A DNA stretch of 64,000 nt from Thalassobaculum sp. OXR-137 (GTDB taxonomy: Bacteria; Pseudomonadota; Alphaproteobacteria; Thalassobaculales; Thalassobaculaceae): the NCBI RefSeq assembly GCF_034377285.1, contig NZ_CP139715.1:2526001-2590000 (forward strand). Direction: 5' to 3'. The notes under the pieces were generated by a model. It saw only the letters and a program-made list of their open reading frames with translations, was not told where the DNA came from and did not search any database. Below, in pieces: positions 40,546 through 52,306 of the stretch (its first letter is position 1; each line of letters starts with the position of its first letter). The position numbers were made by a program, and so were the translations under genes.

Positions 40546-40571
40546 TGATCCGATGCAGGCCCTCCCCCGTA
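40546..40571 (+). promoter_or_regulatory. ECF11-type promoter of the DUF6134-photolyase operon
   Basis: TGATCC (40546-40551) and CGTA (40568-40571) are separated by 16 bases; the base after TGATCC is G. The same pattern with identical spacing lies before the FAD oxidoreductase operon and the class I photolyase gene. The first start codon is 46 bases downstream of the -10 box. It resembles, from memory, promoters of RpoE-ChrR type sigma factors responding to singlet oxygen. Confidence 0.75.
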
Positions 40572-40616: not shown

Positions 40617-41393
40617 ATGACCGGCATACAGTCACGCTCTTTCTCCCGGCGCACCGTGCTCGGTGCGATGGCCGCGACCGGGGCGGCGTCGATCCTGGGA
40701 GCGCCATTGGGAATGTCGGCCGCACAGGCCGCCCCGTCATTGGCCTCGGCCTATCCGAGCATCCTGAAATTCCGGGTCCAGCGCGACGGCGGCTTCATCG
40801 GCCATGTGATGGAACGCTACCGGCCGGTCGGCCAGGAACTGCAGGTCGACGTCTTTATCGGCTTCGTGGTCTCCCTGGCCTTCATTCCCCTCTATCGCTA
40901 CGAGCACCGGGCCCGCGAAATCTGGCGCGAGGGCCGTCTGGTGCGGCTCGATACGGTGACCAACGACAATGGCGAGCCCCAATCGGTGACGGGTCGGGCC
41001 GGGTCGGACGGGTTCGCGGTTACCGGCACCGAAGGCGCGCTGACCGCGCCGGCCGACATTCTGCCGTCCAGCTACTGGCACCCGCGGTTCACCGAGTCCT
41101 CCAGCATGCTGGACAGCCAGCTCGGCCGGATCCTGGAATTCGACATCGCGAAGATCGGCACCGAACGGATCGACGTGCTCGGCCAGCCGGTGGAGGCGGA
41201 CCGGTTCGCGATGCGCGGGGATGTGGATCTGGACTTCTGGTACGACGCGGATCGGGTCTGGCAGAAGATGGCCTTCACCATCAAGGGCGGCTTCATGGAG
41301 TACGACCGGGTCGCCCCGACCGCCGAGGACGAGGGGCTGTTCGGCTCTCCCCTGTCCACCGGAACCGCGCTGCCGCCGCCGGGGACCGCGTGA
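40617..41393 (+). CDS. DUF6134 family exported protein (Tat signal)
   Basis: A 258-residue protein with a twin-arginine signal (SRRTVLGAMAATGAASILG, then a cleavage near AAQAAPS). The mature part is beta-rich, starting with YPSILKFRVQRDGGFIGHVM and containing DVDLDFWYDADRVWQKMAFT, which matches the lipid-binding-like beta barrel of DUF6134/DUF3108-type proteins. Function unknown; the fold suggests binding of a lipid or hydrophobic ligand in the periplasm. It is first in operon A, 46 bases after an ECF-type promoter, and its stop overlaps the start of the photolyase gene (GTGA). Its inclusion in the photo-stress set is inferred from that promoter. Confidence 0.82.
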   Translation: MTGIQSRSFSRRTVLGAMAATGAASILGAPLGMSAAQAAPSLASAYPSILKFRVQRDGGFIGHVMERYRPVGQELQVDVFIGFVVSLAFIPLYRYEHRAREIWREGRLVRLDTVTNDNGEPQSVTGRAGSDGFAVTGTEGALTAPADILPSSYWHPRFTESSSMLDSQLGRILEFDIAKIGTERIDVLGQPVEADRFAMRGDVDLDFWYDADRVWQKMAFTIKGGFMEYDRVAPTAEDEGLFGSPLSTGTALPPPGTA

Positions 41394-42913
41394 CGGTTCT
41401 GCGCGTCGTCCTGGGCGATCAACTCGATCGGCAGATCTCCAGCCTCACCGACCTCGACCGCGACGCGGACGTGGTCCTGATGATGGAGGTGACGGACGAG
41501 ACGACCTATGTCCCCCATCATCCCAAGAAGATCGCCCTCATCCTCTCCGCCATGCGCCATTTCTCGGCGGCGCTGGAGGCGGAGGGGGCGACGGTGGACT
41601 ATGTCCGCCTGGATGCCTCGCAGAATACGGGCAGCTTCACCGGCGAAGTCGATCGGGCGGTGAAGCGACACAAGCCCAAGCGGATCGTCGTGACCGAGCC
41701 GGGAGAATGGCGGGTCGAGCAGGACGTGAAAGCCTGGGAGCAGGCTTTCGGTCTGCCGGTGGAGATCCGGGCCGACGACCGGTTCCTGTGCTCCCGCGCC
41801 GAATTCGCCGATTGGGCCAAGGGCCGCAAAATGTTCCGCATGGAGCATTTCTATCGCGAGATGCGCAAGCGCACCGGCATCCTCATGGACGGCGACGATC
41901 CCGTGGGCGGGGAGTGGAATTTCGACAAGGAGAACCGCAAGCCGCTGCCCAAGGGGATCCGGGCGCCGAATTTCGCGGGCGTGGCCCCCGACGAGATCAC
42001 CGAACCGGTCCTGGCGCTGGTCGCCGAGCGTTTTGCTGACAATTTCGGCGACCTCGACGGCTTCCGCTTTCCGGTCACCCGCGATCAGGCCCTCGGTCTG
42101 CTGGACCGGTTCATCGCGCGCGGGCTGAAGGATTTCGGCGACTACCAGGATGCCATGGCGCTGGGCGAGCCGTTCCTGTTCCACTCGCTGATTTCGCCGG
42201 CGCTGAATATCGGCCTGCTGCGGCCGCGCGAGGTGATCGAGCGGGTGGAGGCGGCCTATCGCGCCGGTGTGGCCCCCCTGAACGCGGCGGAGGGGTTCAT
42301 CCGGCAGATCCTGGGCTGGCGCGAATACGTGCGCGGGATCTACTGGCACGCCATGCCGGAGTACGCCGAGACCAATGCCTTCGGCGCGGACAGGCCGCTG
42401 CCGGCGCTGTACTGGACCGGCGAGACCGACATGCGCTGCCTCGCCGAAGTGGTCGGCCAGACCCGGCGCGAGGCCTATGCCCACCACATCCAGCGGCTGA
42501 TGGTGACCGGGTGCTTCGCCCTGCTGATCGGCGCCGATCCGGACGAGGTCAACGCGTGGTACCTGGCGGTCTACGCCGACGCCTTCGAGTGGGTGCAGCT
42601 TCCCAATACCCACGGGATGGTGCTGCACGCCGATGGCGGCATGCTCGGCTCCAAGCCCTACGCGGCCTCGGGCAAGTATATCGACCGGATGTCGGACTAT
42701 TGCGGGACGTGCCGCTACGACGTGAAGCAGACCGCGGGGGAAACCGCTTGTCCCTTTAACGCGTTGTACTGGCGGTTCCTCGATCGCAACGCAGGGCACC
42801 TGCGGGACAACCGGCGGATGGCGATGATCTACCGAACCTGGGACCGGTTCGACGACGACCGGCGCGCGGCGATCCTGGCGCGGGCCGACAGATTCCTTGA
42901 GACCTTGGACTGA
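41390..42913 (+). CDS. phrB: Fe-S bacterial cryptochrome/photolyase, (6-4) photolyase PhrB type
   Basis: A 507-residue flavoprotein of the FeS-BCP (CryPro) clade that repairs (6-4) pyrimidine photoproducts with blue light. The four cluster cysteines fall at residues 350, 438, 441 and 454, the same numbers as I recall for Agrobacterium PhrB, in ETDMRC and DYCGTCRYDVKQTAGETACP. The histidine pair of the active site is at 365-366 (EAYAHHIQRL). The N-terminal antenna region (LRVVLGDQL) differs from class I enzymes and probably binds dimethyl-ribityl-lumazine. FAD-binding residues lie in NAAEGFIRQILGWREYVRG. The GTG start overlaps the previous stop, indicating coupling. Second gene of operon A. 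Confidence 0.95.
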   Translation: MTVLRVVLGDQLDRQISSLTDLDRDADVVLMMEVTDETTYVPHHPKKIALILSAMRHFSAALEAEGATVDYVRLDASQNTGSFTGEVDRAVKRHKPKRIVVTEPGEWRVEQDVKAWEQAFGLPVEIRADDRFLCSRAEFADWAKGRKMFRMEHFYREMRKRTGILMDGDDPVGGEWNFDKENRKPLPKGIRAPNFAGVAPDEITEPVLALVAERFADNFGDLDGFRFPVTRDQALGLLDRFIARGLKDFGDYQDAMALGEPFLFHSLISPALNIGLLRPREVIERVEAAYRAGVAPLNAAEGFIRQILGWREYVRGIYWHAMPEYAETNAFGADRPLPALYWTGETDMRCLAEVVGQTRREAYAHHIQRLMVTGCFALLIGADPDEVNAWYLAVYADAFEWVQLPNTHGMVLHADGGMLGSKPYAASGKYIDRMSDYCGTCRYDVKQTAGETACPFNALYWRFLDRNAGHLRDNRRMAMIYRTWDRFDDDRRAAILARADRFLETLD

Positions 42914-42925
42914 GAGGCGGAGACG

Positions 42926-43678
42926 ATGGCAGAGCGGATTGTCTGGATCACCGGCGCCAGTTCCGGCATCGGCCGCGCGGTGGCGCTGGAGATGGCGCGG
43001 GACGGCTGGCGGGTCGTCGGCTCGGCCCGGCGCCAGGAGGAACTCGACGAGCTGGCGGCGGAAGGCCCGGCCGGCCGGATCACCGGAGTCGCCGTCGACG
43101 TGACCGACCTGGAGGCGACCAAGGCCGCCGCCGCCCGGATCGAGGCGGAGATCGGGCCGATCGACTGTGCCGTCCTGGCGGCGGGCACGCACATCCCGAC
43201 CTCGGCCGAGGACTTCAGGCCGGAGGATTTCCGCAAGCTGGTCGAGGTCAACGTCATGGGCGTGGTCCATGCGACCGCGGCGGTCCTGCCCGGCTTCAAG
43301 GCGCGCCGGTCCGGCCATCTGGTCGTTGTGGCCAGCGTCGCCGGCTATGGCGGCCTGCCGACCGCGGCCGGCTACGGGGCGACCAAGGCGGCGCTGATCA
43401 ACTTCACGGAAGCGATGAAGTTCGACCTGGACGATTTCGGCGTGAAGACCCAGCTCGTCTGTCCCGGCTTCGTGAAGACGCCGCTGACCGACAAGAATCC
43501 GTTTCCCATGCCGTTCCTGATGGAAGTGGAGGATGCCGCCAAGGCGATGGTGTCGGGCATGAAGGGCGGCGGGTTCGAGATCACCTTCCCCAAGCGGTTC
43601 ACGACCCTGGTGAAGATCGTCTCGAGCCTGCCCTACCGGCTGTACTTTGCGCTGGTCGCCAAGGGGACCAGAGGATGA
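42926..43678 (+). CDS. Short-chain dehydrogenase/reductase (photo-stress operon)
   Basis: A 250-residue classical SDR. The cofactor motif ITGASSGIGRAVALEMARDG is at residues 6-25, the catalytic serine in VVVASVAGYGG and the YxxxK pair in GYGATKAALINF. A hydrophobic C-terminal segment (VKIVSSLPYRLYFALVAKG) may associate with the membrane, as in SDRs acting on lipids or quinones. It lies 12 bases after the photolyase gene and 13 before the SnoaL-like gene. SDRs are regular members of light- or singlet-oxygen-induced clusters with photolyase and fatty-acid-modifying genes. The substrate is unknown. Confidence 0.88.
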   Translation: MAERIVWITGASSGIGRAVALEMARDGWRVVGSARRQEELDELAAEGPAGRITGVAVDVTDLEATKAAAARIEAEIGPIDCAVLAAGTHIPTSAEDFRPEDFRKLVEVNVMGVVHATAAVLPGFKARRSGHLVVVASVAGYGGLPTAAGYGATKAALINFTEAMKFDLDDFGVKTQLVCPGFVKTPLTDKNPFPMPFLMEVEDAAKAMVSGMKGGGFEITFPKRFTTLVKIVSSLPYRLYFALVAKGTRG

Positions 43679-43691
43679 GGGAGACACGGCA

Positions 43692-44117
43692 ATGATCGAC
43701 GGTCGCCGCAATCTGGACGCCTATCTGAAGGCCTACGAGGTCATGGGGCCGGACAACCTCGACGTGTTCGACACGGTCTGCGATCCCGATGTGCGGTTCG
43801 TGGATCCGTTCAACGACCTGCGCGGGGTGGAGCGGTTGAAGGACGTCTATCGCGAGATGTACGACACCCTCGATAATCCGCGTTTCACCATCCATGACAG
43901 CGCGGTCGGGGAGAAGGCGGGCTATATCCGCTGGCAGTTCGATTTCGCCCTGCGCGGCCGCGAGATGTCGATCGACGGCATGTCGGAGGTCGCTTTCGGG
44001 CCGGACGGCCGGGTGGTCGCCCATGTGGACCACTGGGATTCCGGGTCCCAGGTCTATGCCCGGATCCCCGTCCTGGGCGCGGCGATCGGATTGGTCCGAA
44101 GGCGGATCGCGCTGTAA
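43692..44117 (+). CDS. SnoaL-like/NTF2-fold protein (photo-stress operon)
   Basis: A 141-residue cystatin-like NTF2-fold protein of the SnoaL type. The first helix and strand (YLKAYEVMGPDNLDVFDTV then CDPDVRFVDPFNDLRGVERL) and DFALRGREMSIDGMSEVAFG carry the hydrophobic pocket pattern with acidic residues that can act in lyase, isomerase or binding proteins. It does not resemble an enzyme I can name. GAGGGAGA precedes the ATG. It is the last gene of operon A and ends 20 bases before a REP-like hairpin that separates it from the converging operon B. Confidence 0.85.
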   Translation: MIDGRRNLDAYLKAYEVMGPDNLDVFDTVCDPDVRFVDPFNDLRGVERLKDVYREMYDTLDNPRFTIHDSAVGEKAGYIRWQFDFALRGREMSIDGMSEVAFGPDGRVVAHVDHWDSGSQVYARIPVLGAAIGLVRRRIAL

Positions 44118-44189: not shown

Positions 44190-44759
44190 TTATGCCGCCT
44201 CGCGGCCCTCGCCGGTCTCGGCCCGCTCCGCGCTGGCCTTCTGGAAGAACAGGGTCACCGTGCCGAGCTCGATGCCGAACTTGGTGACATAGGCGCGGTT
44301 GACCATGACCCCGTCCGACTGCAGGAACATCCAGTCGTCGAACCGCACCTTCACGTCGTGGCCCTGGATGTTCAGCTCCATCTCGTAGGTCCAACTGAAG
44401 GCGGAGCCCTCGGTCTGACCCTGCGCCGTGCCGATCACGTCGCTGGCCCGGCCGACATAGGAATTCTCGCCAACCTTCTCGATCCGCCAGATCCGCTGGT
44501 CCTTCTCCCCGTCGGCATAGTCGAACTGCTCGTCGAGGGTCAGGGTGGTTCCGTCCCAGGTGCCGGTGATGTCGACGACGAACTGCCGCCGCAGGTTCCC
44601 GAACCGGTCCTCGAAGATGCCCCAGGCCTTGGTCTTGCCCTCGAAATAGTCCTCGAGCACGAGCTTGGGCGTGGTCCCCTTGAAATCGTCGATCTGCATG
44701 GACTGGCAACCCCCCAAAAGTAGGAGAACTGTCACTACATACGCGAATCGGTAGAGCAT
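44190..44759 (-). CDS. DUF3833 family lipoprotein
   Basis: A 189-residue lipoprotein matching DUF3833. The lipobox LLLLGGC places the acylated cysteine at residue 18, followed by QSMQIDDF. The mature part is a beta barrel with typical segments TPKLVLEDYFEGKTKAWGIF and DYADGEKDQRIWRIEKVGEN. Function is unknown; the family is lipocalin-like and often found with cyclopropane-synthase-like, DUF1365 and FAD-oxidoreductase genes. Here it is the last gene of exactly such an operon. Its start lies inside the 3' end of the GPH-type carrier gene (25-base overlap). It probably sits in the outer or inner membrane facing the periplasm. Confidence 0.9.
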   Translation of the reverse strand: MLYRFAYVVTVLLLLGGCQSMQIDDFKGTTPKLVLEDYFEGKTKAWGIFEDRFGNLRRQFVVDITGTWDGTTLTLDEQFDYADGEKDQRIWRIEKVGENSYVGRASDVIGTAQGQTEGSAFSWTYEMELNIQGHDVKVRFDDWMFLQSDGVMVNRAYVTKFGIELGTVTLFFQKASAERAETGEGREAA

Positions 44760-46129
44760 GGATCAGTCTCCTGGTTGACTTCCCCATCTTTACGCAGAAT
44801 TTCCGCCCGCAGATGTCCCTGGGCGTCGCGATCGAGTGGAAAACGCCACATCAGGCCGATCGCCACCGCCTTCAGCAGGACCGGCAGCCCGGCATAGAGC
44901 AGGGCGAGCGCCAGCAACGCGCCGTCGCCGTTTGTGCCGGCCGCGTCGAACCCGGCGACGTCGAGCAGTCCGAAGGCGATGCCGACCGCCAGGGCCAGCG
45001 CCATCTTGGTCGCCATCCCCCAGAACGCGAAATACAGCCCCGTGCGCCGGCCGCCGCCCTGCGCGGTGTCGACATCGACCACATCCGCCTGGATCGCGCT
45101 CGGCAGGGTCAGGTCGGCACCGAGGCACAGGCCCGTGGCGATGCAGATCACGAGGAAGACGTCCGCGTCGCCGGCCCCCAGCAGCGGCACGATGGCGAAG
45201 ATGGCGGCGTTCAGGATCATCGCGGTGCACCAGGTCCGGTGCTTGCCGAGGCGGCGCGCCACCAGCAGCCAAAGCGGCACGCCGAGGATACCGCACAGGA
45301 AATAGACGAACAGCAGCAGCCCCTGCCGCTCCGGGGCGACCAGAACATGCTCCACGAAGAGCAGGAACAGGGTCGCCGGCAGGCCATTGGCCAAACCGTT
45401 GATCAGATAGGCGAGGATGAGGCGCAGAAACGGCTTGTTGCGCAGCAGAAGGCGCCGGGACTCCGTCCAGGGCAGCGGGTTCGGGGCGGCTGTGCGGTGG
45501 TCCCGTACGGCCGCCGCGGCGGTGCCGACGGTCAGCGGCAGCACGACCATCAGCGCCAGCGCCAGCGCTCCCAGCGCCGCTCCGGGCCGCACGTCTCCCT
45601 CGATCCCGAGAAAGACCGGCGTTCCGGCGGCGAGCAGCGTGCCGATGACCACGCAGGACTCCCGGGCGCCGGCGATGCGACTGCGTTCATCATAGTCGTC
45701 GGAGAGCTCGGCGCCCCAGGCGCCGTGGGGAAGCTGGATCATCGTCCAGCCGAGATAGAGCAGCAGGCTCCAGCCCAGCAGATGCCAGGCGCCGGCATCC
45801 TCTGGCGGCCGGAAGATCATCCAGACGGACAGCATGAGCAGCGGGACGGCGGCCAGCATCCAGGGACGCCGCCGCCCGAACCGGCTGCGGCTGCGGTCCG
45901 ACAGGGCGCCGATCACCGGGTCGGTGACCACGTCCCATAGCCGGGCCACCAGCAGGATCGCGCCGACCGTCGCCAGCGGCAGCCCCACCTCCTGCGAGTA
46001 GAAGGTGGGCAGGAAGATGAACAGCGGCACGCCGAGTGCGCCGATGGGGAGTCCCGGCAGGCCGTAGGCGATCAGCCGGGCGACCGACAGCCTCCCGCCG
46101 GAGGCGGAAGGGGATTTGGGCTCAGCCAC
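44735..46129 (-). CDS. GPH-type (MelB-like) MFS carrier
   Basis: A 464-residue membrane carrier of the glycoside-pentoside-hexuronide:cation symporter type with about twelve helices. The MelB-like loop LWDVVTDPVIGALSDRSRSR and GRRRPWMLAAVPLLMLSVWM, followed by HGAWGAELSDDYDERSRIAG, are the family landmarks. The start is a GTG (VAEPKSPS) overlapping the stop of the methyltransferase gene by eight bases; the open frame further upstream is shadow. Homologous carriers lie in fatty-acid-modification clusters of light-stress regulons, where the substrate is not a known sugar; lipid export or flipping is a possibility. Confidence 0.88.
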   Translation of the reverse strand: MAEPKSPSASGGRLSVARLIAYGLPGLPIGALGVPLFIFLPTFYSQEVGLPLATVGAILLVARLWDVVTDPVIGALSDRSRSRFGRRRPWMLAAVPLLMLSVWMIFRPPEDAGAWHLLGWSLLLYLGWTMIQLPHGAWGAELSDDYDERSRIAGARESCVVIGTLLAAGTPVFLGIEGDVRPGAALGALALALMVVLPLTVGTAAAAVRDHRTAAPNPLPWTESRRLLLRNKPFLRLILAYLINGLANGLPATLFLLFVEHVLVAPERQGLLLFVYFLCGILGVPLWLLVARRLGKHRTWCTAMILNAAIFAIVPLLGAGDADVFLVICIATGLCLGADLTLPSAIQADVVDVDTAQGGGRRTGLYFAFWGMATKMALALAVGIAFGLLDVAGFDAAGTNGDGALLALALLYAGLPVLLKAVAIGLMWRFPLDRDAQGHLRAEILRKDGEVNQETDPCSTDSRM

Positions 46130-47345
46130 GCTGGAAGGCGAAATGGCGCACGTCGATATTTCCGGACAGGAAGCCGCCCTCGCAATAGGCGAGATAATAC
46201 AGCCACATCCGCTTGAACCGGTCGTCGAACCCGAGCGCGGCGATCTCCGGCCAGGAGGCCAGGAACCGGTCGCGCCATTCGGCCAGGGTGCGGGCATAGT
46301 CCACGCCGAAGCCGCGCTCGTCCTGTGGCTTCAGCCCGACCTGCGCGGCGTGGTCGATCACATGGTCCCGGGTCGGTAGCATGCCGCCGGGGAAGATGTA
46401 GCGCTGGATGAAGTCCGGATTTCGGCGATAGTCGTCGAAGGAGTCGGGCTCGATGGTGATGATCTGCAGGGCCGCCTTGCCGCCGTCCTTCAGCCGTTCT
46501 TTCACGGTGTTGAAGAAGGCCGGCCAGTACTTCACGCCCACCGCTTCGAACATTTCGATCGAGGCCACGGCGTCGTATCGGCCGGCCACGTCGCGGTAGT
46601 CGCACAGCTCGAACGTCATCCGGTCCGCCATGCCGACCGCTTCAGCGCGCGCACGGGCATAGGCGAGCTGCTCGGTGGACAGGGTGATCCCGTGCACCGA
46701 GGCGCCGTAGTCCCGGGCGGCCACTTCGGCGAACCCGCCCCAGCCGCATCCGATCTCAAGCACCGTCTGGCCCGGCTTCAGCTCCAGATCCTGGGCGAGC
46801 CGATGGTATTTGGCGAGCTGGGCCGCCTCCAGATCCTGCTGGGTGCCGTCGAACAGCGCGGCGGAGTAGGTCATCGTCGGGTCGAGCCAGCGCTCGTAGA
46901 ACGCATTGCCCAGGTCGTAGTGGTAGCTGATGTTCCGTCGGGCGCCGCTGCGGGAATTCCGGTTCAGAATATGGATCGCCCGGCGCACCAGCTTGGCCAG
47001 CGGGTGGGCGCGGGTGTGGTGTTCGAGCGCTGCCTTGTTGCGGCAGAACAGCTCGACCAGGGCGGTCAGGTCCGGGCTCTCGGCCTCGTCCTCGATGAAG
47101 GCTTCGGCGAAGCCCAGGTCGCCGCCCATCATGAAGCGGCGGACCACGCCGGGATCCTTGATCCGCACGGTGGCGGAGGGGCCCGGTTCGCGGCCCTCGA
47201 AGGTCAATTGCCGGCCGTCGGGGAACTGTACCGTCAACTGGCCCACGGCCAGCCGGGTGAGCAGCGACATGCCGCGTCGGGTCCAGGCATCCAATCCGCT
47301 GAAATCGAACTGGGACAGCGGGGAGGAGAGAGTGGTGTCTGACAT
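46122..47345 (-). CDS. Cyclopropane-fatty-acyl-phospholipid synthase-like methyltransferase
   Basis: A 407-residue SAM-dependent enzyme of the CFA synthase (mycolic acid cyclopropane synthase) family. It has the SAM motif VLEIGCGWGGFAEVAARDYG at about residues 197-216 and YHYDLGNAFYERWLDPTMTY upstream of it. The conserved acidic and aromatic positions in ASIEMFEAVGVKYWPAFFNT and the FPGGMLPTRDHVI region match the active site. It methylates the double bond of unsaturated phospholipid acyl chains, giving cyclopropane or methyl-branched products. In Rhodobacter sphaeroides, related enzymes act in methylated furan fatty acid synthesis under singlet-oxygen control, which I recall but cannot check. 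Third gene of operon B. Confidence 0.92.
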   Translation of the reverse strand: MSDTTLSSPLSQFDFSGLDAWTRRGMSLLTRLAVGQLTVQFPDGRQLTFEGREPGPSATVRIKDPGVVRRFMMGGDLGFAEAFIEDEAESPDLTALVELFCRNKAALEHHTRAHPLAKLVRRAIHILNRNSRSGARRNISYHYDLGNAFYERWLDPTMTYSAALFDGTQQDLEAAQLAKYHRLAQDLELKPGQTVLEIGCGWGGFAEVAARDYGASVHGITLSTEQLAYARARAEAVGMADRMTFELCDYRDVAGRYDAVASIEMFEAVGVKYWPAFFNTVKERLKDGGKAALQIITIEPDSFDDYRRNPDFIQRYIFPGGMLPTRDHVIDHAAQVGLKPQDERGFGVDYARTLAEWRDRFLASWPEIAALGFDDRFKRMWLYYLAYCEGGFLSGNIDVRHFAFQRG

Positions 47346-47378
47346 CGGGGGCTTCCCTCTTGTCTGGCGCCGTTGAAA

Positions 47379-48197
47379 CTAGGCCGCCTTGGCCGGATGG
47401 GTAGGGGAGTCGTGGCTTTGTCCGCGCGAGACCGGTGCCTGGGGCGGCTCGGGGCGCGGATGGAATTTTGCCTTTTTCAGACGCAGCCTCCCGGCCTCCC
47501 AGAGGATCGCGGCGATCACCTTGAAGGTGTTGAGAGGGTGGGAGAACAGGGTCGCGGTGAGCGTGCGGTCGGTCAGTGTCCGACGCTCGGCGGCATGGGT
47601 CGCGATCATCCGGTCGGCACCATCCGGACCGACCAGACGGATCAGCAGGCGCAGCGTCTCCGACGGCTCGTCGGTCCGGAACCGGTAGCTCCCGGCCAGA
47701 TCAAAGAATGGCGAGACGTGGAAGACCTTCCGCGCTTCCTGCACCAGCGGTTCGCCCGGCACGTGGTCCGGCGCCGCGGGAATGAAATAGCAATGCTGGT
47801 CGCCGAAGGTGTTCTTGACCTCGTACAGCACGCCCGCCAGCGACCCGTCGGCGCGGTAGCCCCAGTACACCGTCAGCGGATTGAACGCGTAGCCGAGGGT
47901 TCGCGGAATGCAGAAGCACAGCACCCGGCCGCCCGGAATGGCGCAGCCCTGCTCGGCGAAGACGGCTTCGACCCAGGGCTTCAGCGGCGCGCCGTCGCCC
48001 GGGCCGTGGTCGCGTTGGTGGAAGGAGAACAGGTTGCCCCGGTCGACGGAGAACAGCCGCATGGCGCTGTCGAGCGCGGGCAGTTCGTCCAGGTCGAGCA
48101 GGAGCGACGCGACCCGGTAGCGAAACCGGTGGCGCATCGGGGCAAAGCGACAATGCATCACCTTGCCGAGATACAGGGCCGAGCGGCGGTCGGTCAT
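47379..48197 (-). CDS. DUF1365 family protein
   Basis: A 272-residue protein matching DUF1365: SALYLGKVMHCRFAPMRHRF at the start, then LDLDELPALDSAMRLFSVDRGNLFSF in outline. The core continues with RVLCFCIPRTLGYAFNPLTV and VKNTFGDQHCYFIP. It is cytosolic and without a known reaction. The family almost always travels with a COG2907 flavoprotein and a CFA-synthase-like gene and is believed to take part in modification of fatty acyl chains. The same order is present here: the flavoprotein gene ends nine bases upstream and the methyltransferase follows 33 bases after its end. The start is an ATG with GAGG upstream. Confidence 0.92.
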   Translation of the reverse strand: MTDRRSALYLGKVMHCRFAPMRHRFRYRVASLLLDLDELPALDSAMRLFSVDRGNLFSFHQRDHGPGDGAPLKPWVEAVFAEQGCAIPGGRVLCFCIPRTLGYAFNPLTVYWGYRADGSLAGVLYEVKNTFGDQHCYFIPAAPDHVPGEPLVQEARKVFHVSPFFDLAGSYRFRTDEPSETLRLLIRLVGPDGADRMIATHAAERRTLTDRTLTATLFSHPLNTFKVIAAILWEAGRLRLKKAKFHPRPEPPQAPVSRGQSHDSPTHPAKAA

Positions 48198-48205
48198 CGG
48201 GGGCC

Positions 48206-49531
48206 TCAGTCAGCCGCTTCCACGGAGCGCAGGGCGCCGGCTCGGAAGGGTTGCCCGTCCGCCGGCTCGACGGTCTCGCTCCAGGGTGGCACGGTACCGA
48301 GAGCCTTGGCCACAGCGATACCCGATCGCAGTCCGTCCTCGTGGAACCCCCAGCCGCAATAGCTGCCGCAGAACCAGGTGCGCCGACGTCCCTGAATGTC
48401 GGACATCAGGCCCTGGGCGGCGATCGCGGCGGTGTCGAAGACCGGGTGGTCGTACTCGAACCGGGCAAAGACCTTGGCCGGATCGGGCTCGTCGAGCGGG
48501 TTCAGGCTGACGAACAGCGGATAGCGACGGTCGATGTTCTGCAGCCGGTTCATCCAGTAAGTGACCGCCACGTCGTGGTCGGCCCCGCTGCCGGTCGACA
48601 GGTAGTTCCAGGACGCCCAGGTGCGCCGCCGGCGCGGCATCAGCGCCGGGTCGCGGTGCAGGATCGCGACGTTCTTCTGGTAGGAGAAGCAGCCCAGGAG
48701 GCGGCGCTCCATGGCGTCCGGCTCGGCGAGCAGCGACAGGGCGGTATCGCCATGGGTGGCGATCACCACCTCGTCGAACCGCTCGCTTCCGCTGTCGGTG
48801 ATCACGTCCACGCCGAACGCGTCGCGCCGGATGCTGCGGACTGGCGTGGACAGCCGGATGCGGTCGGCGAAGGGGGCTGAGATCCGCTGAACGTATTCGC
48901 GCGAGCCGCCGGTCACCGTGTGCCACTGCGGCCGCGCGGCGAAGTCGAGCAGACCGTGATTACAGAAGAACTGGACGAACGACCGCGCCGGGAAGGCCAT
49001 CATGGTTTCCGCGGGGCAGGACCAGATCGCCGCCGCCATCGGCAGCAGGTGATCCTCGATGAAGCCGGGGCCGTATCCTTCGCGGGTCAGGTAGCCGCCG
49101 AGGGTGATCGTCTCGTCATTGGCCGGCATGGCCAGCAGCGACGGCGCCGTGCGGTAGAACCGCACCAGATCCCGGATCATCCGCCAGTACCGGGCGCTGA
49201 CCAGATTGCTCGGCTGGGCGGTGAAGCCGGCAAAGGAGCCCTCGTATTCGAGACGGCCGCCATCGACCGACACGGCGAAGGACATGTCGCTCTTCTCGGT
49301 CGCCACGCCCAGTTCGGCGAACAGCGCGATCAGGTTGGGATACGTGCGCTCGTTATAAACGATGAAGCCGGTATCGACCGGGATGGTGACGCCGTCGTAA
49401 TCGACATCCACGGTGTTGCTGTGCCCGCCGAGCCGGTCAGCCGCTTCGAACACGGTGACGTCGTGATCGCGGTCGAGCAACCAGGCGGTGGACAGACCCG
49501 AGATTCCGGACCCGATGACGGCGATGCGCAT
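48206..49531 (-). CDS. COG2907 FAD-dependent amine-oxidase-like oxidoreductase
   Basis: A 441-residue flavoprotein with the dinucleotide-binding motif MRIAVIGSGISGLSTAWLLD and the conserved HSNTVDVDYDGVTIPVDTGF. RRTWASWNYLS then a final FAD-contact region (GLMSDIQGRRRTWFCGSYCG) complete the family pattern. COG2907 proteins resemble amine oxidases and phytoene desaturases; a relative (UfaD in Rhodobacter sphaeroides, as I recall) acts as a fatty-acid desaturase together with a CFA-like methyltransferase. The ATG of MRIAVIG is used rather than one ten codons earlier because the family begins here. It is the first gene of operon B, 33 bases after an ECF-type promoter. Confidence 0.92.
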   Translation of the reverse strand: MRIAVIGSGISGLSTAWLLDRDHDVTVFEAADRLGGHSNTVDVDYDGVTIPVDTGFIVYNERTYPNLIALFAELGVATEKSDMSFAVSVDGGRLEYEGSFAGFTAQPSNLVSARYWRMIRDLVRFYRTAPSLLAMPANDETITLGGYLTREGYGPGFIEDHLLPMAAAIWSCPAETMMAFPARSFVQFFCNHGLLDFAARPQWHTVTGGSREYVQRISAPFADRIRLSTPVRSIRRDAFGVDVITDSGSERFDEVVIATHGDTALSLLAEPDAMERRLLGCFSYQKNVAILHRDPALMPRRRRTWASWNYLSTGSGADHDVAVTYWMNRLQNIDRRYPLFVSLNPLDEPDPAKVFARFEYDHPVFDTAAIAAQGLMSDIQGRRRTWFCGSYCGWGFHEDGLRSGIAVAKALGTVPPWSETVEPADGQPFRAGALRSVEAAD

Positions 49532-49563: not shown

Positions 49564-49589
49564 TACGAGCAGGGGGCGATCTCGGATCA
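49564..49589 (-). promoter_or_regulatory. ECF11-type promoter of the COG2907 operon
   Basis: On the minus strand TGATCC (49589-49584) and CGTA (49567-49564) are separated by exactly 16 bases, the first being G. The spacing and core match those of the two other elements. The start codon of the FAD oxidoreductase lies 33 bases downstream, and the -35 box begins 15 bases after the stop of the photolyase gene. Confidence 0.75.
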
Positions 49590-49604: not shown

Positions 49605-51059
49605 TCACTCCTTCTTGATCGTCGCCAGGGCCTCCAGCGCCCGCTGGCGGGCTCCGGCGTGGTCGACGATGGGCTTGGGATAGGTCTTGCCCAGGGTCAC
49701 GCCGGCTTGCGACAGCTCCATCGGCTTGGCCTCCCAGGGCTTGTGAATGACGGCGTCGGGCAGTTTGGCCAGTTCCGGAATCCAGCGCCGCACGTAGCGA
49801 CCGTCACCGTCGAATTTCTCGCCCTGCAGCACCGGGTTGAAGATCCGGAAATACGGGGCGGCGTCGGCACCGCAGCCGGCCACCCACTGCCAACTGGCGG
49901 CGTTGTTGGCGAGGTCGGCGTCGACCAGCGTGTCCCAGAACCAGGCTTCTCCCTCGCGCCAGTGGATCAGCAGGTCCTTGATCAGGAAGGAGGCGACGAT
50001 CATCCGCACCCGGTTGTGCATCCAGCCGGTGTGCCACAGTTCCCGCATCCCGGCGTCCACGATGGGGTAGCCGGTGCGGCCGCGGCGCCAGGCCTTGAGG
50101 CCGTCGGGGTCGTCGCGCCAGGGAAAGTCCTCGAACTCGCGCCGCAGGGAGATTTCGGGCAGGTCGGGATTGTTGAACAGCAGGTTGTAGGAGAACTCCC
50201 GCCAGCAGATCTCCGACAGGAAGCTCGCCGTGCCGCGATCCATCGCCTCGTTGCTGCGGGCCTCGCTTGCCAGGCGGGCGGCGTGCCAGATCCGCCGGGG
50301 CGAGATATCGCCGAAATGCAGGTGCGGCGAGAGGGCGGAGGTGCCGTTGGTGCTGGGGATGTCGCGCTTGGCCTTGTAGTCGGGCACCGCCTCGTCGAGG
50401 AAGCGTTCCAGCCGCTCGGCGGCGCCGGCTTCGCCGGGCGTCCAGGTCTCACGTAGCCCGCCGGCCCAGTCCGGCTCGGTCGGCAGCAGGCCCCAGGTGT
50501 CCAGATCGTCGCTGTCCGGCGCCGTCTTCGGCGCGGCCAGTGTCTTCGGCGCCGCCAGCGGCTCGGCGGGGTCGCCCTTCGCCTGGACGGCGCGCCAGAA
50601 CGGGGAGAACACCTTCAGCGGCGTGCCCTGCTTGGAGACGATCTCCCACGGCTCGTAGAGCAGGCTGCCGTTGAAGCTGCGCACTTCCAGGTCGCGCTTC
50701 TTGAGGGCGTCCTTTATCTTCCCGTCGCGCTCGGTCGCCCAGGGCTCGTAGCGCCGGTTCCAGAACACGGCACCGGCGCCGGTCTCCTCCACCATCCGGT
50801 CCAGCACGTCCGCTGCCTTGCCCCGGCGCAGTACGAGGGGGCTACCGGCTTTGTCCAGCGTCTCGGCAAGCCGGGCCAGCGAGCCGTGCAGCCACCAGCG
50901 CGACGCCCCGCCCGGCCGCCAGTCGCCGGCATCCTCGTCGTCCAGGATGAACACAGGCACCACCGGCCCGCCCCGCTCCACGGCGGCGGCAAGGGCGGGA
51001 TTGTCGTCCAGGCGCAGGTCGCGGCGGAACCAGAGGATCGTGGGCGCGGTATCGGGCAT
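49605..51059 (-). CDS. phr: Deoxyribodipyrimidine photolyase, class I (CPD)
   Basis: A 484-residue class I CPD photolyase that splits cyclobutane pyrimidine dimers with blue light. The antenna domain begins ILWFRRDLRLDDNPALAAAV. The FAD domain shows TSALSPHLHFGDISPRRIWH, TGYPIVDAGMRELWHTGWMH then NRVRMIVASFLIKDLLIHWR, and DADLANNAASWQWVAGCGAD for the flavin-contact helices including the N that stabilises the semiquinone. The trailing part (RIFNPVLQGEKFDGDGRYVR then RWIPELA) is also typical. The ATG of MPDTAPTILW is chosen; a longer frame upstream is shadow. Transcribed separately with its own ECF-type promoter 37 bases upstream. Confidence 0.96.
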   Translation of the reverse strand: MPDTAPTILWFRRDLRLDDNPALAAAVERGGPVVPVFILDDEDAGDWRPGGASRWWLHGSLARLAETLDKAGSPLVLRRGKAADVLDRMVEETGAGAVFWNRRYEPWATERDGKIKDALKKRDLEVRSFNGSLLYEPWEIVSKQGTPLKVFSPFWRAVQAKGDPAEPLAAPKTLAAPKTAPDSDDLDTWGLLPTEPDWAGGLRETWTPGEAGAAERLERFLDEAVPDYKAKRDIPSTNGTSALSPHLHFGDISPRRIWHAARLASEARSNEAMDRGTASFLSEICWREFSYNLLFNNPDLPEISLRREFEDFPWRDDPDGLKAWRRGRTGYPIVDAGMRELWHTGWMHNRVRMIVASFLIKDLLIHWREGEAWFWDTLVDADLANNAASWQWVAGCGADAAPYFRIFNPVLQGEKFDGDGRYVRRWIPELAKLPDAVIHKPWEAKPMELSQAGVTLGKTYPKPIVDHAGARQRALEALATIKKE

Positions 51060-51095: not shown

Positions 51096-51121
51096 TACGC
51101 GTCCTTGCCCGCACCGGATCA
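51096..51121 (-). promoter_or_regulatory. ECF11-type promoter of the class I photolyase gene
   Basis: On the minus strand TGATCC (51121-51116) and CGTA (51099-51096) are 16 bases apart, the first spacer base again G. It overlaps the stop codon of the EAL-like gene, so the photolyase gene has its own promoter inside the end of its upstream neighbour. The start codon is 37 bases downstream. Confidence 0.75.
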
Positions 51122-52306
51122 GGCTCGGCGCCGATTGGGTCTGCGTTTTCCGGCGGAAGGCTGCGTCGTCGCGTCCGTTGGCGGCGGTGCGCTGAGACGG
51201 GCGTCCACACCCCACCCCTGCACCAGATGGAGGCCGAGCTCGAGGGCGGCAGTGACGGCCGCCTCATCGGGGCAGTGATATGCGATCACCCGGTGACGGC
51301 CGATCTTATCGAGGGTCTGCGACAGCATCGCGCGGTCCCCAGCCGACAGGTTCGCCAGCGCCGGGGTCCATTCGACCTTGATGAAGCGGATCTCGGGGGA
51401 CGCCTCGACGAAGTGTTGCAGGGAGGTCCATGGCACCGCGTCGACGGCAACCGTCGCCTCCTGCTCGGCGAGCCGTCGCACCGCCGCGGCGAAACGGTCC
51501 GGCGCGTCGATCATCTCGATATGGGACAGCTCGAAGATCAGATGCCGGCGCCAGTCGAAGCGCTGGTCGAGCAGAAAGGTCTCGAAGATGTCGGACAGAA
51601 TCGTGGAGAGGTGGATGTTGATCGACAGCCGCCGGTCCGTCCGAGCCCGGTCCCGGGACAGATGGTGCAGCATGCGCCGGTCGAGAATTTCGGTAATCCG
51701 GTCGAACAGCCACGGGTTTCGGCTCAGCGGGATACCGTAGAGCTTCTGGATCGCCTGGATGGAGGTGGAGATCTCGATGGCCAGGACCGACGGCGCCGCC
51801 GGGTCTGACAGATCCACGATCGCCTGTTCGCGCAGCAGGTTCGAGATATCGGCCGAGGCAAGATTGCGTTCGATCGACAGGAAGGCGGCCAGCGCCTTGT
51901 CCTCGTCATCCTCGGCGCGGAAATCGGGGCGGGCCTCGACCGCCCGGGCCATCTCCCGGCAGACCGTCAGGAACGGCTCGGGTCGGGACTGCAGGGAGAA
52001 ATGGGTCTCGCCGATCGGCGGCTTGCCATGGGCGACCAGCAGGGCTGACAGCGACTTCACCGCGCTTGTCAGGGCGGTGGCGGCGGATGAGCGGACGACG
52101 AAGCAGATCCGATGATCCGCCAGGTCGAAGCGCTGGGCGTCGAGCTGCCGCGCGCGTTCCTGCAACCGTCCGGACAGCACACGGAAGAAGGCCGGGTCGT
52201 CGATATGCGGGACCTGGGACAGATCGACGACTAGCGCGGTCAGATCGGGATGCTCCTCGGCCGCCTTCATGGCCAGGGCAAGCAGGTCGGCCTCGCGCGT
52301 TCTCAT
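51119..52306 (-). CDS. Degenerate EAL-like domain protein
   Basis: A 395-residue soluble protein. The N-terminal 120 residues resemble a STAS- or receiver-like alpha/beta unit (TALVVDLSQVPHIDD). The C-terminal 200 residues follow the order of an EAL domain: RRLSINIHLSTILSDIF, LIFELSHIEMIDA, VAVDAVPW, IRFIKVEW, HRVIAYHCPDEAAV and LVQGWGVD. The EAL motif itself is absent, E-V-E becomes YHCPDE and the double aspartate is reduced to one, so cyclic-di-GMP hydrolysis is unlikely; a binding role is more likely. The start overlaps the stop of the PdeM gene by four bases (ATGA), showing translational coupling. An ECF-type promoter lies at its 3' end. Confidence 0.75.
   Translation of the reverse strand: MRTREADLLALAMKAAEEHPDLTALVVDLSQVPHIDDPAFFRVLSGRLQERARQLDAQRFDLADHRICFVVRSSAATALTSAVKSLSALLVAHGKPPIGETHFSLQSRPEPFLTVCREMARAVEARPDFRAEDDEDKALAAFLSIERNLASADISNLLREQAIVDLSDPAAPSVLAIEISTSIQAIQKLYGIPLSRNPWLFDRITEILDRRMLHHLSRDRARTDRRLSINIHLSTILSDIFETFLLDQRFDWRRHLIFELSHIEMIDAPDRFAAAVRRLAEQEATVAVDAVPWTSLQHFVEASPEIRFIKVEWTPALANLSAGDRAMLSQTLDKIGRHRVIAYHCPDEAAVTAALELGLHLVQGWGVDARLSAPPPTDATTQPSAGKRRPNRRRA

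Follow-up and report, generated by a model that had tools for sequence, protein, structure and literature searches.

The window analysed here is a 64-kb stretch of Thalassobaculum sp. OXR-137 (NZ_CP139715.1), in which five open reading frames (ORFs), packed tightly and all on the minus strand at positions 44190-49531, very probably constitute, judging from their sequences, an operon for furan fatty acid synthesis that belongs to the sigmaE-ChrR (ECF11) response to singlet oxygen. Gene families were assigned by Pfam throughout. In the direction of transcription, the operon begins with a putative ortholog of UfaD, a flavin adenine dinucleotide (FAD) desaturase (48206..49531; Amino_oxidase/NAD_binding_8, flavin amine oxidoreductase), for which COG2907 was the label of a preliminary description of this DNA. 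This gene is followed by a putative UfaO ortholog of the DUF1365 family (47379..48197; PF07103, E 3.7e-76), a putative UfaM ortholog annotated as an S-adenosylmethionine (SAM)-dependent acyl methylase of the CMAS/CFA family (46122..47345; PF02353), an MFS_2/GPH carrier corresponding to RSP1089 (44735..46129; PF13347), and a DUF3833 lipoprotein corresponding to RSP1088 (44190..44759; PF12915, E 1.3e-66), which carries the lipobox LGGC. The start of the carrier is most likely the GTG at 46129, as read from the sequence; with this start, its 5' end overlaps the methylase stop by 8 bases, while the DUF3833 start lies inside the last 25 bases of the carrier gene. The preliminary description had placed the same five genes at this position and on this strand, in families with which Pfam agrees, including the cyclopropane synthase family for the methyltransferase. 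Its spacing, a 33-base gap between ufaO and ufaM and then overlaps, is also correct except for the gap between ufaD and ufaO, which is 8 bases rather than 9.

The chemistry of the first three proteins is known from other bacteria. UfaM acts first on phospholipids, methylating their cis-vaccenate chains; the methylated chain is then desaturated by UfaD, all of whose 18:2 products seen in vitro were methylated, and the DUF1365 protein UfaO builds the furan with oxygen taken from O2 (Lemke 2020, PMC7380195). The resulting 9M5-furan fatty acid (9M5-FuFA) is made in Rhodobacter sphaeroides and Rhodopseudomonas palustris, and the adjacent UfaD, UfaO, and UfaM genes of the latter (RPA2571-2569) are reported to be necessary and sufficient for furan formation (PMC7380195). 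For comparison with the window, the sister species Cereibacter johrii and Luteovulum (Cereibacter) azotoformans stood in for R. sphaeroides, which is not among the 53 loci around ChrR considered below. Their operon has the order UfaD-UfaO-GPH-DUF3833-SDR (short-chain dehydrogenase) beside chrR, and protein lengths agree closely with the published ones (SDR 245 residues versus 245 in RSP1087, DUF3833 186 versus 186 in RSP1088, GPH 401 versus 402 in RSP1089, and UfaO 249 in L. azotoformans versus 250 in RSP1090). The window UfaD is 43% identical (180/415) to that of C. johrii and is the only match in its genome, UfaO is 36% identical (91/250) and is the sole DUF1365 protein of the genome, and the methylase is 46% identical to Cereibacter UfaM; the GPH carrier and the DUF3833 protein are 34% and 31% identical to their C. 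johrii counterparts. At the level of sequence, the assignment of the COG2907, DUF1365, and CFA-like proteins as orthologs of UfaD, UfaO, and UfaM is thus well supported. On the basis of this orthology to the R. sphaeroides and R. palustris enzymes, UfaM would use SAM to methylate the cis-vaccenoyl chains of phospholipids already in place, giving 11-methyl-12t-18:1, UfaD would convert this chain to 11-methyl-10t,12t-18:2, and UfaO would insert an oxygen atom from O2 and close the furan ring, yielding 9M5-FuFA, a chain destroyed by singlet oxygen. The earlier suggestion of a UfaD/UfaM-type furan product is therefore strengthened: UfaD, UfaO, and UfaM each have an ortholog here, arranged as in RPA2571-2570-2569. 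Its statement that DUF1365 has no known reaction does not hold, since DUF1365 is UfaO, the O2-dependent furan-forming enzyme. Taken as a whole, that description was right about furan synthesis and overlooked existing publications on the pathway, on the regulon, and on some of the synteny; the assignment to furan synthesis, the pathway, and the regulon are known and are not claimed as new here.

The regulatory context points in the same direction. The motif TGATCC-N16-CGTA has been published as the consensus of PSPTO_1043, an RpoE-type sigma factor of Pseudomonas syringae (PMC5507510), and exact copies form putative sigmaE-ChrR (ECF11)-type promoters of ufaD (49564..49589, minus strand), of a photolyase gene upstream (51096..51121, minus strand), and of an operon converging on the ufa genes (40546..40571, plus strand). 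The window contains nine sites with at most one mismatch, five of them exact, against 3.2 expected, and none of 100 shuffles reaches nine; the genome holds 19 exact sites, while a reversed-pattern control gives none. The ECF-type promoter of the preliminary description is accordingly found as an exact site before ufaD and stands above chance. The two other exact sites in the window were rejected as promoters and taken as chance, one (44765-44740) overlapping the DUF3833 start codon and the other (49050-49075) lying antisense inside ufaD. A ChrR protein above the NCBIfam cut-off is encoded elsewhere in the genome, the adjoining ECF sigma gene stands behind the same exact promoter, and this rpoE-chrR pair is located approximately 0.8 Mb from the ufa cluster. 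Exact sites in the genome also precede a second sigma-70 family gene, a cytochrome c gene, and a DUF3422 gene. The second sigma-70 gene is read here as RpoH-like, Pfam showing sigma regions only. Among the other sites, some lack a clear downstream gene or lie before unrelated genes (for a PAS protein and a TPP enzyme); these may have arisen by chance. The published R. sphaeroides response table includes rpoHII, cycA, phrA, and RSP1091-1087 (PMC7074977), and the ECF sigma gene beside chrR, the second sigma-70 gene, and the cytochrome c gene recall this response. Furan synthesis genes are part of the conserved core regulon, and ChrR turnover under singlet oxygen depends on them; it has been proposed that furan fatty acids, which singlet oxygen destroys, participate in the signal leading to ChrR turnover and sigmaE release (PMC6852236).

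A class I, phrA-like photolyase gene (49605..51059, minus strand; DNA_photolyase/FAD_binding_7) is the first gene upstream of ufaD on the same strand. Directly upstream of it, an ORF at 51119-52306 (minus strand) shows a weak EAL-like match just below the Pfam cut-off, and at 51121-51119 its stop codon meets the promoter of the photolyase. On the plus strand, a DUF6134-DPRP-SDR-SnoaL operon converges on the ufa operon, its 3' end lying beside DUF3833. It encodes a DUF6134 protein (40617..41393; PF19630, start read from the sequence), whose N terminus, labelled Tat, is presumably twin-arginine-like; a photolyase-related protein (DPRP; 41390..42913; PF04244, E 4.1e-89); an SDR corresponding to RSP1087 (42926..43678; PF00106), which is 40% identical (97/241) to the one in the C. 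johrii ufa operon; and a SnoaL/NTF2-like protein (43692..44117; PF12680), whose start was likewise taken from the sequence.

Conservation was assessed in a non-random sample of 60 stretches of 12-16 kb around DUF1365 genes from 59 mostly well-assembled genomes of the same class. UfaD is present in 59 stretches, the CFA-like protein in 51, the SDR in 39, the GPH carrier in 36, a ChrR-like ORF in 34, DUF3833 and SnoaL in 33 each, a class I photolyase in 26 (22 of them on the UfaO strand), and DPRP in 6; UfaD, UfaO, and the CFA-like protein occur together in 51. Where found, SDR and SnoaL genes mostly lie on the strand opposite to UfaO (36/39 and 32/33 loci). Both the carrier and DUF3833 are found in 29 of the 60 loci, one of the two in 11, and neither in 20, a co-occurrence with a Fisher p of 1e-6, uncorrected for kinship. 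Across 387 genomes of the class, DUF1365 occurs in 202 and DUF3833 in 142, with both in 134 (74 expected) and DUF3833 alone in 8. In 61 relatives, 24 of 31 DUF3833 places lie within 5 kb of DUF1365; among the remaining seven, four are on a contig other than that of DUF1365 and three are in genomes without a DUF1365 match. Approached from ChrR, 30 of 53 loci have all of UfaD, UfaO, GPH, DUF3833, and SDR, and six, several of them short pieces, have none. The search for conserved synteny thus yields an association far beyond chance across 60 loci and 387 genomes, while the claim that the carrier and DUF3833 are always neighbours of DUF1365 has to be reduced to frequent association. Conservation of RSP1089-1087 is said to be restricted to Rhodobacteraceae (PMC3818230), yet the 29 loci with both genes span 16 family codes, implying that the carrier and DUF3833 extend more widely; the gene order of the window also differs from that of Rhodobacteraceae loci. 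One genome has two DUF1365/UfaD pairs (L096 and L097), with a methylase and a carrier near one and not the other. At another locus (L101), UfaD, UfaO, methylase, DUF3833, and SDR genes share one strand, no GPH carrier was found, and the methylase sits on a long branch.

The promoter was sought in these relatives with a looser pattern (TGATC-N16-18-CGTA). Of 60 loci, 43 carry it before the UfaD gene, the photolyase gene, or both. Upstream of UfaD it occurs in 29 of 59 loci (26 of 47 in Rhodobacteraceae; 0.1 in shuffled upstream sequence), and upstream of the photolyase in 15 of 26. Two results qualify the extension of the regulon to relatives: 17 of the 60 loci have no such site upstream of either gene, and sites directly upstream of SDR (2/38) or DPRP (0/6) are too few for a general rule covering the convergent genes, the scan having covered the SDR and DPRP starts rather than that of DUF6134.

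Attention then falls on the carrier. In a comparison of the single carrier sequence with the PDB, MFSD2A chains come first among the solved relatives (128 bits), ahead of MelB (48 bits), and a profile of 45 operon carriers gives 173 bits for MFSD2A versus 112 for MelB. Chicken MFSD2A outscores Escherichia coli MelB for 36 of 37 operon carriers, the window included, compared with 0 of 5 sugar GPH proteins of E. coli; among eight other GPH-like proteins, MFSD2A leads in two, and four score zero on both. Residue roles were taken from studies of MelB and MFSD2A (PMC12851581 and PMC10250862). The cation-coupling set (MelB R52, D55, D59, and K377) is kept in 37/37 operon carriers, and the residues at MFSD2A R85, D92, and K436 are also kept. 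The MelB sugar residues D19, D124, and W128 are replaced in the window carrier by Gly, Gln, and Gly, and W342 is not kept either, although at D19, D124, and W128 the remaining five GPH proteins of E. coli depart from MelB too. Near MelB R149, an Arg-Glu pair (alignment positions 152-153) is invariant, in a register that depends on the alignment; the carrier has Glu at the R149 position and the invariant Arg one residue before. Lys371 of the same alignment is invariant as well. In the carrier tree, the six E. coli proteins form one 100/100 group and MFSD2A is a long, unplaced branch. The operon carriers do not form one clean group, because two of them (L050 and L069) fall with other proteins on an 82/89 branch. 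By these sequence criteria, the operon carriers are for the most part a distinct GPH subfamily, nearer by score to a lipid carrier than to sugar permeases and with a substrate site of their own. That the closest solved relatives of the carrier are MFSD2A and not sugar permeases is a new observation.

Structural predictions were made for the lipoprotein and for UfaO. The AlphaFold model of DUF3833, built from 37 sequences, is a ten-stranded barrel after a signal stretch, with a predicted local distance difference test (pLDDT) score of 86.8. Aligned with VIA-align, it resembles nitrobindins (Z 13-14; root-mean-square deviation (rmsd) 2.7-3.3 over 135-141 residues), BFA1 (Z 15.0), and fatty-acid-binding proteins (Z 9-10); a designed barrel scores Z 15.6, so that part of this similarity is barrel geometry. 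A Blc-type lipocalin had been expected; Blc was not among the matches listed, which excludes nothing. By a simple pattern, a lipobox is present in 29 of 34 DUF3833 proteins from outside Rhodobacteraceae, the window included, while in Rhodobacteraceae a hydrophobic or membrane stretch at the N terminus seems to replace it. Likewise new is the prediction that DUF3833 forms a ten-stranded barrel, with a lipid anchor in most loci outside Rhodobacteraceae. The UfaO model is mainly beta (pLDDT 85.6) and weakly resembles nitrobindins (Foldseek E 8e-5; Z 8.7 at best, rmsd 3.8-4.2), and among the residues invariant across 107 UfaO sequences are His15, Arg17, Tyr137, Lys157, and Phe164, with His135 in 105. 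Sequence searches of the PDB returned a single match for DUF3833 (E 0.73) and six for UfaO (E 0.16-1.4), none of which is meaningful. UfaO may be a nitrobindin-like barrel oxygenase. The 2020 paper leaves its cofactor open (PMC7380195), and our guess is that heme or another cofactor could occupy the barrel.

One challenge to furan synthesis concerns the methylase, which might produce ordinary cyclopropane acids that UfaD and UfaO then modify, or some other methylated chain, without a furan being formed. The protein does belong to the CFA family. The methylase tree comprises 69 rows, namely 52 operonic sequences (window included), 3 Cereibacter UfaM, 13 paralogs, and E. coli Cfa. On one side of a 100/100 branch lie all operonic sequences, the UfaM proteins, and three further paralogs; on the other are Cfa and 10 paralogs, including the second Cfa-like protein of the window genome. 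This position on the UfaM side, away from Cfa, argues against such a product, in a tree from which the cotton sequences are absent. At the bicarbonate site of the E. coli enzyme, Cys139 is replaced by Ser, Ala, or Gly in 52/52 operonic sequences and by Ser in 3/3 UfaM, and His266 by Gln in 55/55 operonic and UfaM sequences, whereas Glu239, Ile268, and Tyr317 are kept in all 55. Among the 13 paralogs, Cys139 and His266 are each found in 10. The window methylase, with Ala and Gln, therefore lacks two canonical bicarbonate-site residues of cyclopropane synthases, as UfaM does, which is a further new observation. These losses were considered as a sign of a methylase as opposed to a cyclopropane synthase, a reading that cotton contradicts: according to the source of the residue list, GhCPS1 has Ser and Gln at the Cys139 and His266 positions and in yeast gives cyclopropane acids of C17 and C19 (PMC3132707). 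The loss of Cys139 and His266 is accordingly no proof of methylation, and the signature marks the clade and not the product. Given that the 18:2 products of UfaD in vitro were all methylated and that RPA2571-2569, arranged in the same order, suffice for furan formation, an operon without a furan product is very improbable.

The role of the carrier and DUF3833 is a separate matter. Single deletions of RSP1089 and RSP1088 in R. sphaeroides left the fatty acid profile unchanged (PMC7380195), from which it follows that neither protein is needed for furan synthesis. A dedicated pair is nevertheless conceivable, in which a membrane carrier and an anchored barrel would act on the furan lipid, on its lyso form, or on products of its oxidation: the MFSD2A-like carrier might flip or extract furan (lyso)phospholipids or singlet-oxygen products, and the barrel might receive them. 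The preliminary description had suggested that these two proteins might move or place the product; neither the MFSD2A-like sequence nor the predicted barrel fold conflicts with this, and we put forward the dedicated pair tentatively, as a possibility well below even chance. Several observations speak against it. MFSD2A outscores MelB in only 13 of 34 Rhodobacteraceae carriers; E312, essential in MFSD2A, is Ala in the window carrier and in 32 of 37 operon carriers; MFSD2A, which had been expected to join the operon carriers in the tree, shares no clade with them; and only 3 of 36 Rhodobacteraceae DUF3833 proteins have a lipobox. The absence of an effect on the fatty acid profile in the deletions counts in the same direction, in a way that bears on synthesis only. 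It also suits the view that both proteins are passengers of the regulon without contact with lipids, the carrier transporting sugars or metabolites as an ordinary cation symporter and DUF3833 serving as a general stress protein. A published table indeed lists RSP1089 as a sugar/cation symporter of the GPH family (PMC7074977), the cation-coupling residues are intact throughout, and a third of the loci have UfaO with neither gene nearby. The loss of the MelB sugar residues (shared in part with other E. coli GPH proteins), the preference for MFSD2A that sugar GPH proteins of E. coli lack, and the co-occurrence of carrier and DUF3833, kinship being uncorrected, are harder to accommodate, and we regard passengers as a serious possibility of roughly one chance in three. 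It is also possible that the pair works outward in the manner of mycobacterial Rv1410-LprG, with the carrier loading lipid onto a barrel lipoprotein that carries it towards the outer membrane. In E. coli, the residue following the lipobox cysteine indicates the membrane in which a lipoprotein resides (the +2 rule), and the Gln at this position in the window points to the outer membrane by that rule. An adjacent MFS carrier and anchored barrel also parallel the triacylglyceride-transport operon (PMC10576003) in gene arrangement; since most Rhodobacteraceae DUF3833 proteins show no lipobox, we consider this outward route rather unlikely. The best reading overall is furan synthesis plus a possible lipid-handling pair.

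Within this reading, the full synthesis set and the carrier pair stand in one operon, and real novelty lies solely in what the carrier and barrel may do. A further new observation is that the upstream photolyase and the convergent operon share the promoter type of ufaD, which places synthesis genes, photolyase, carrier, and lipoprotein of the window under one promoter type. If the dedicated pair is true, the sigmaE-ChrR response gains a lipid export, repair, or signalling arm; no description of such an arm, and no paper treating DUF1365 and DUF3833 together, was found in the literature searched. If the carrier and barrel move furan lipids, they offer a route to study a membrane oxidation signal between membranes, and a link between bacterial carriers and MFSD2A, if true, would provide a simple model for lipid-carrying GPH proteins.

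Comparison with known systems shows both a common core and local rearrangement. RSP1091-1087 together with RSP2144 of R. sphaeroides comprise the same protein families, with a sigmaE promoter and chrR next door. In that species UfaM is encoded elsewhere (RSP2144), whereas here ufaM stands between ufaO and the carrier gene; in addition, unlike in R. sphaeroides, a photolyase heads the cluster, the SDR lies in a convergent operon, and rpoE-chrR is distant. The UfaD-UfaO-UfaM order is that of RPA2571-2570-2569 in R. palustris CGA009, for which the text available from PMC7380195 does not mention the carrier or DUF3833. R. palustris also has FufM, which makes a dimethyl furan, the present comparison covering UfaD, UfaO, and UfaM. 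Halomonas ufaM was reportedly expressed in E. coli in a 2025 study (PMC12089945). In plants, UfaD and UfaM homologues are fused in one protein (cotton GhCPS and AtUFAMD1), and AtUFAO1 is also known; these fused oxidase-CFA proteins are eukaryotic, and at least GhCPS1 makes cyclopropane. For the carrier, the best-scoring solved relative is MFSD2A, a sodium-dependent lysophosphatidylcholine symporter, from which it differs by the absence of E312 and of a common clade, while Rv1410-LprG, whose operon likewise encodes an MFS carrier together with an anchored protein that handles lipids, is a parallel by arrangement. The conserved genes listed for the core sigmaE-ChrR (ECF11) regulon include photolyase, CFA-like, UfaD, UfaO, SDR, and DUF3833 genes, all present in the window, and core genes have orthologs in P. 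syringae (PMC5507510). The DUF3833 counterpart of P. syringae is described as a solitary gene that has no binding site (PMC5507510), whereas here it is operonic, and, unlike the known core regulon, the DUF6134-DPRP-SDR-SnoaL operon of Thalassobaculum sp. OXR-137 also has an exact site.

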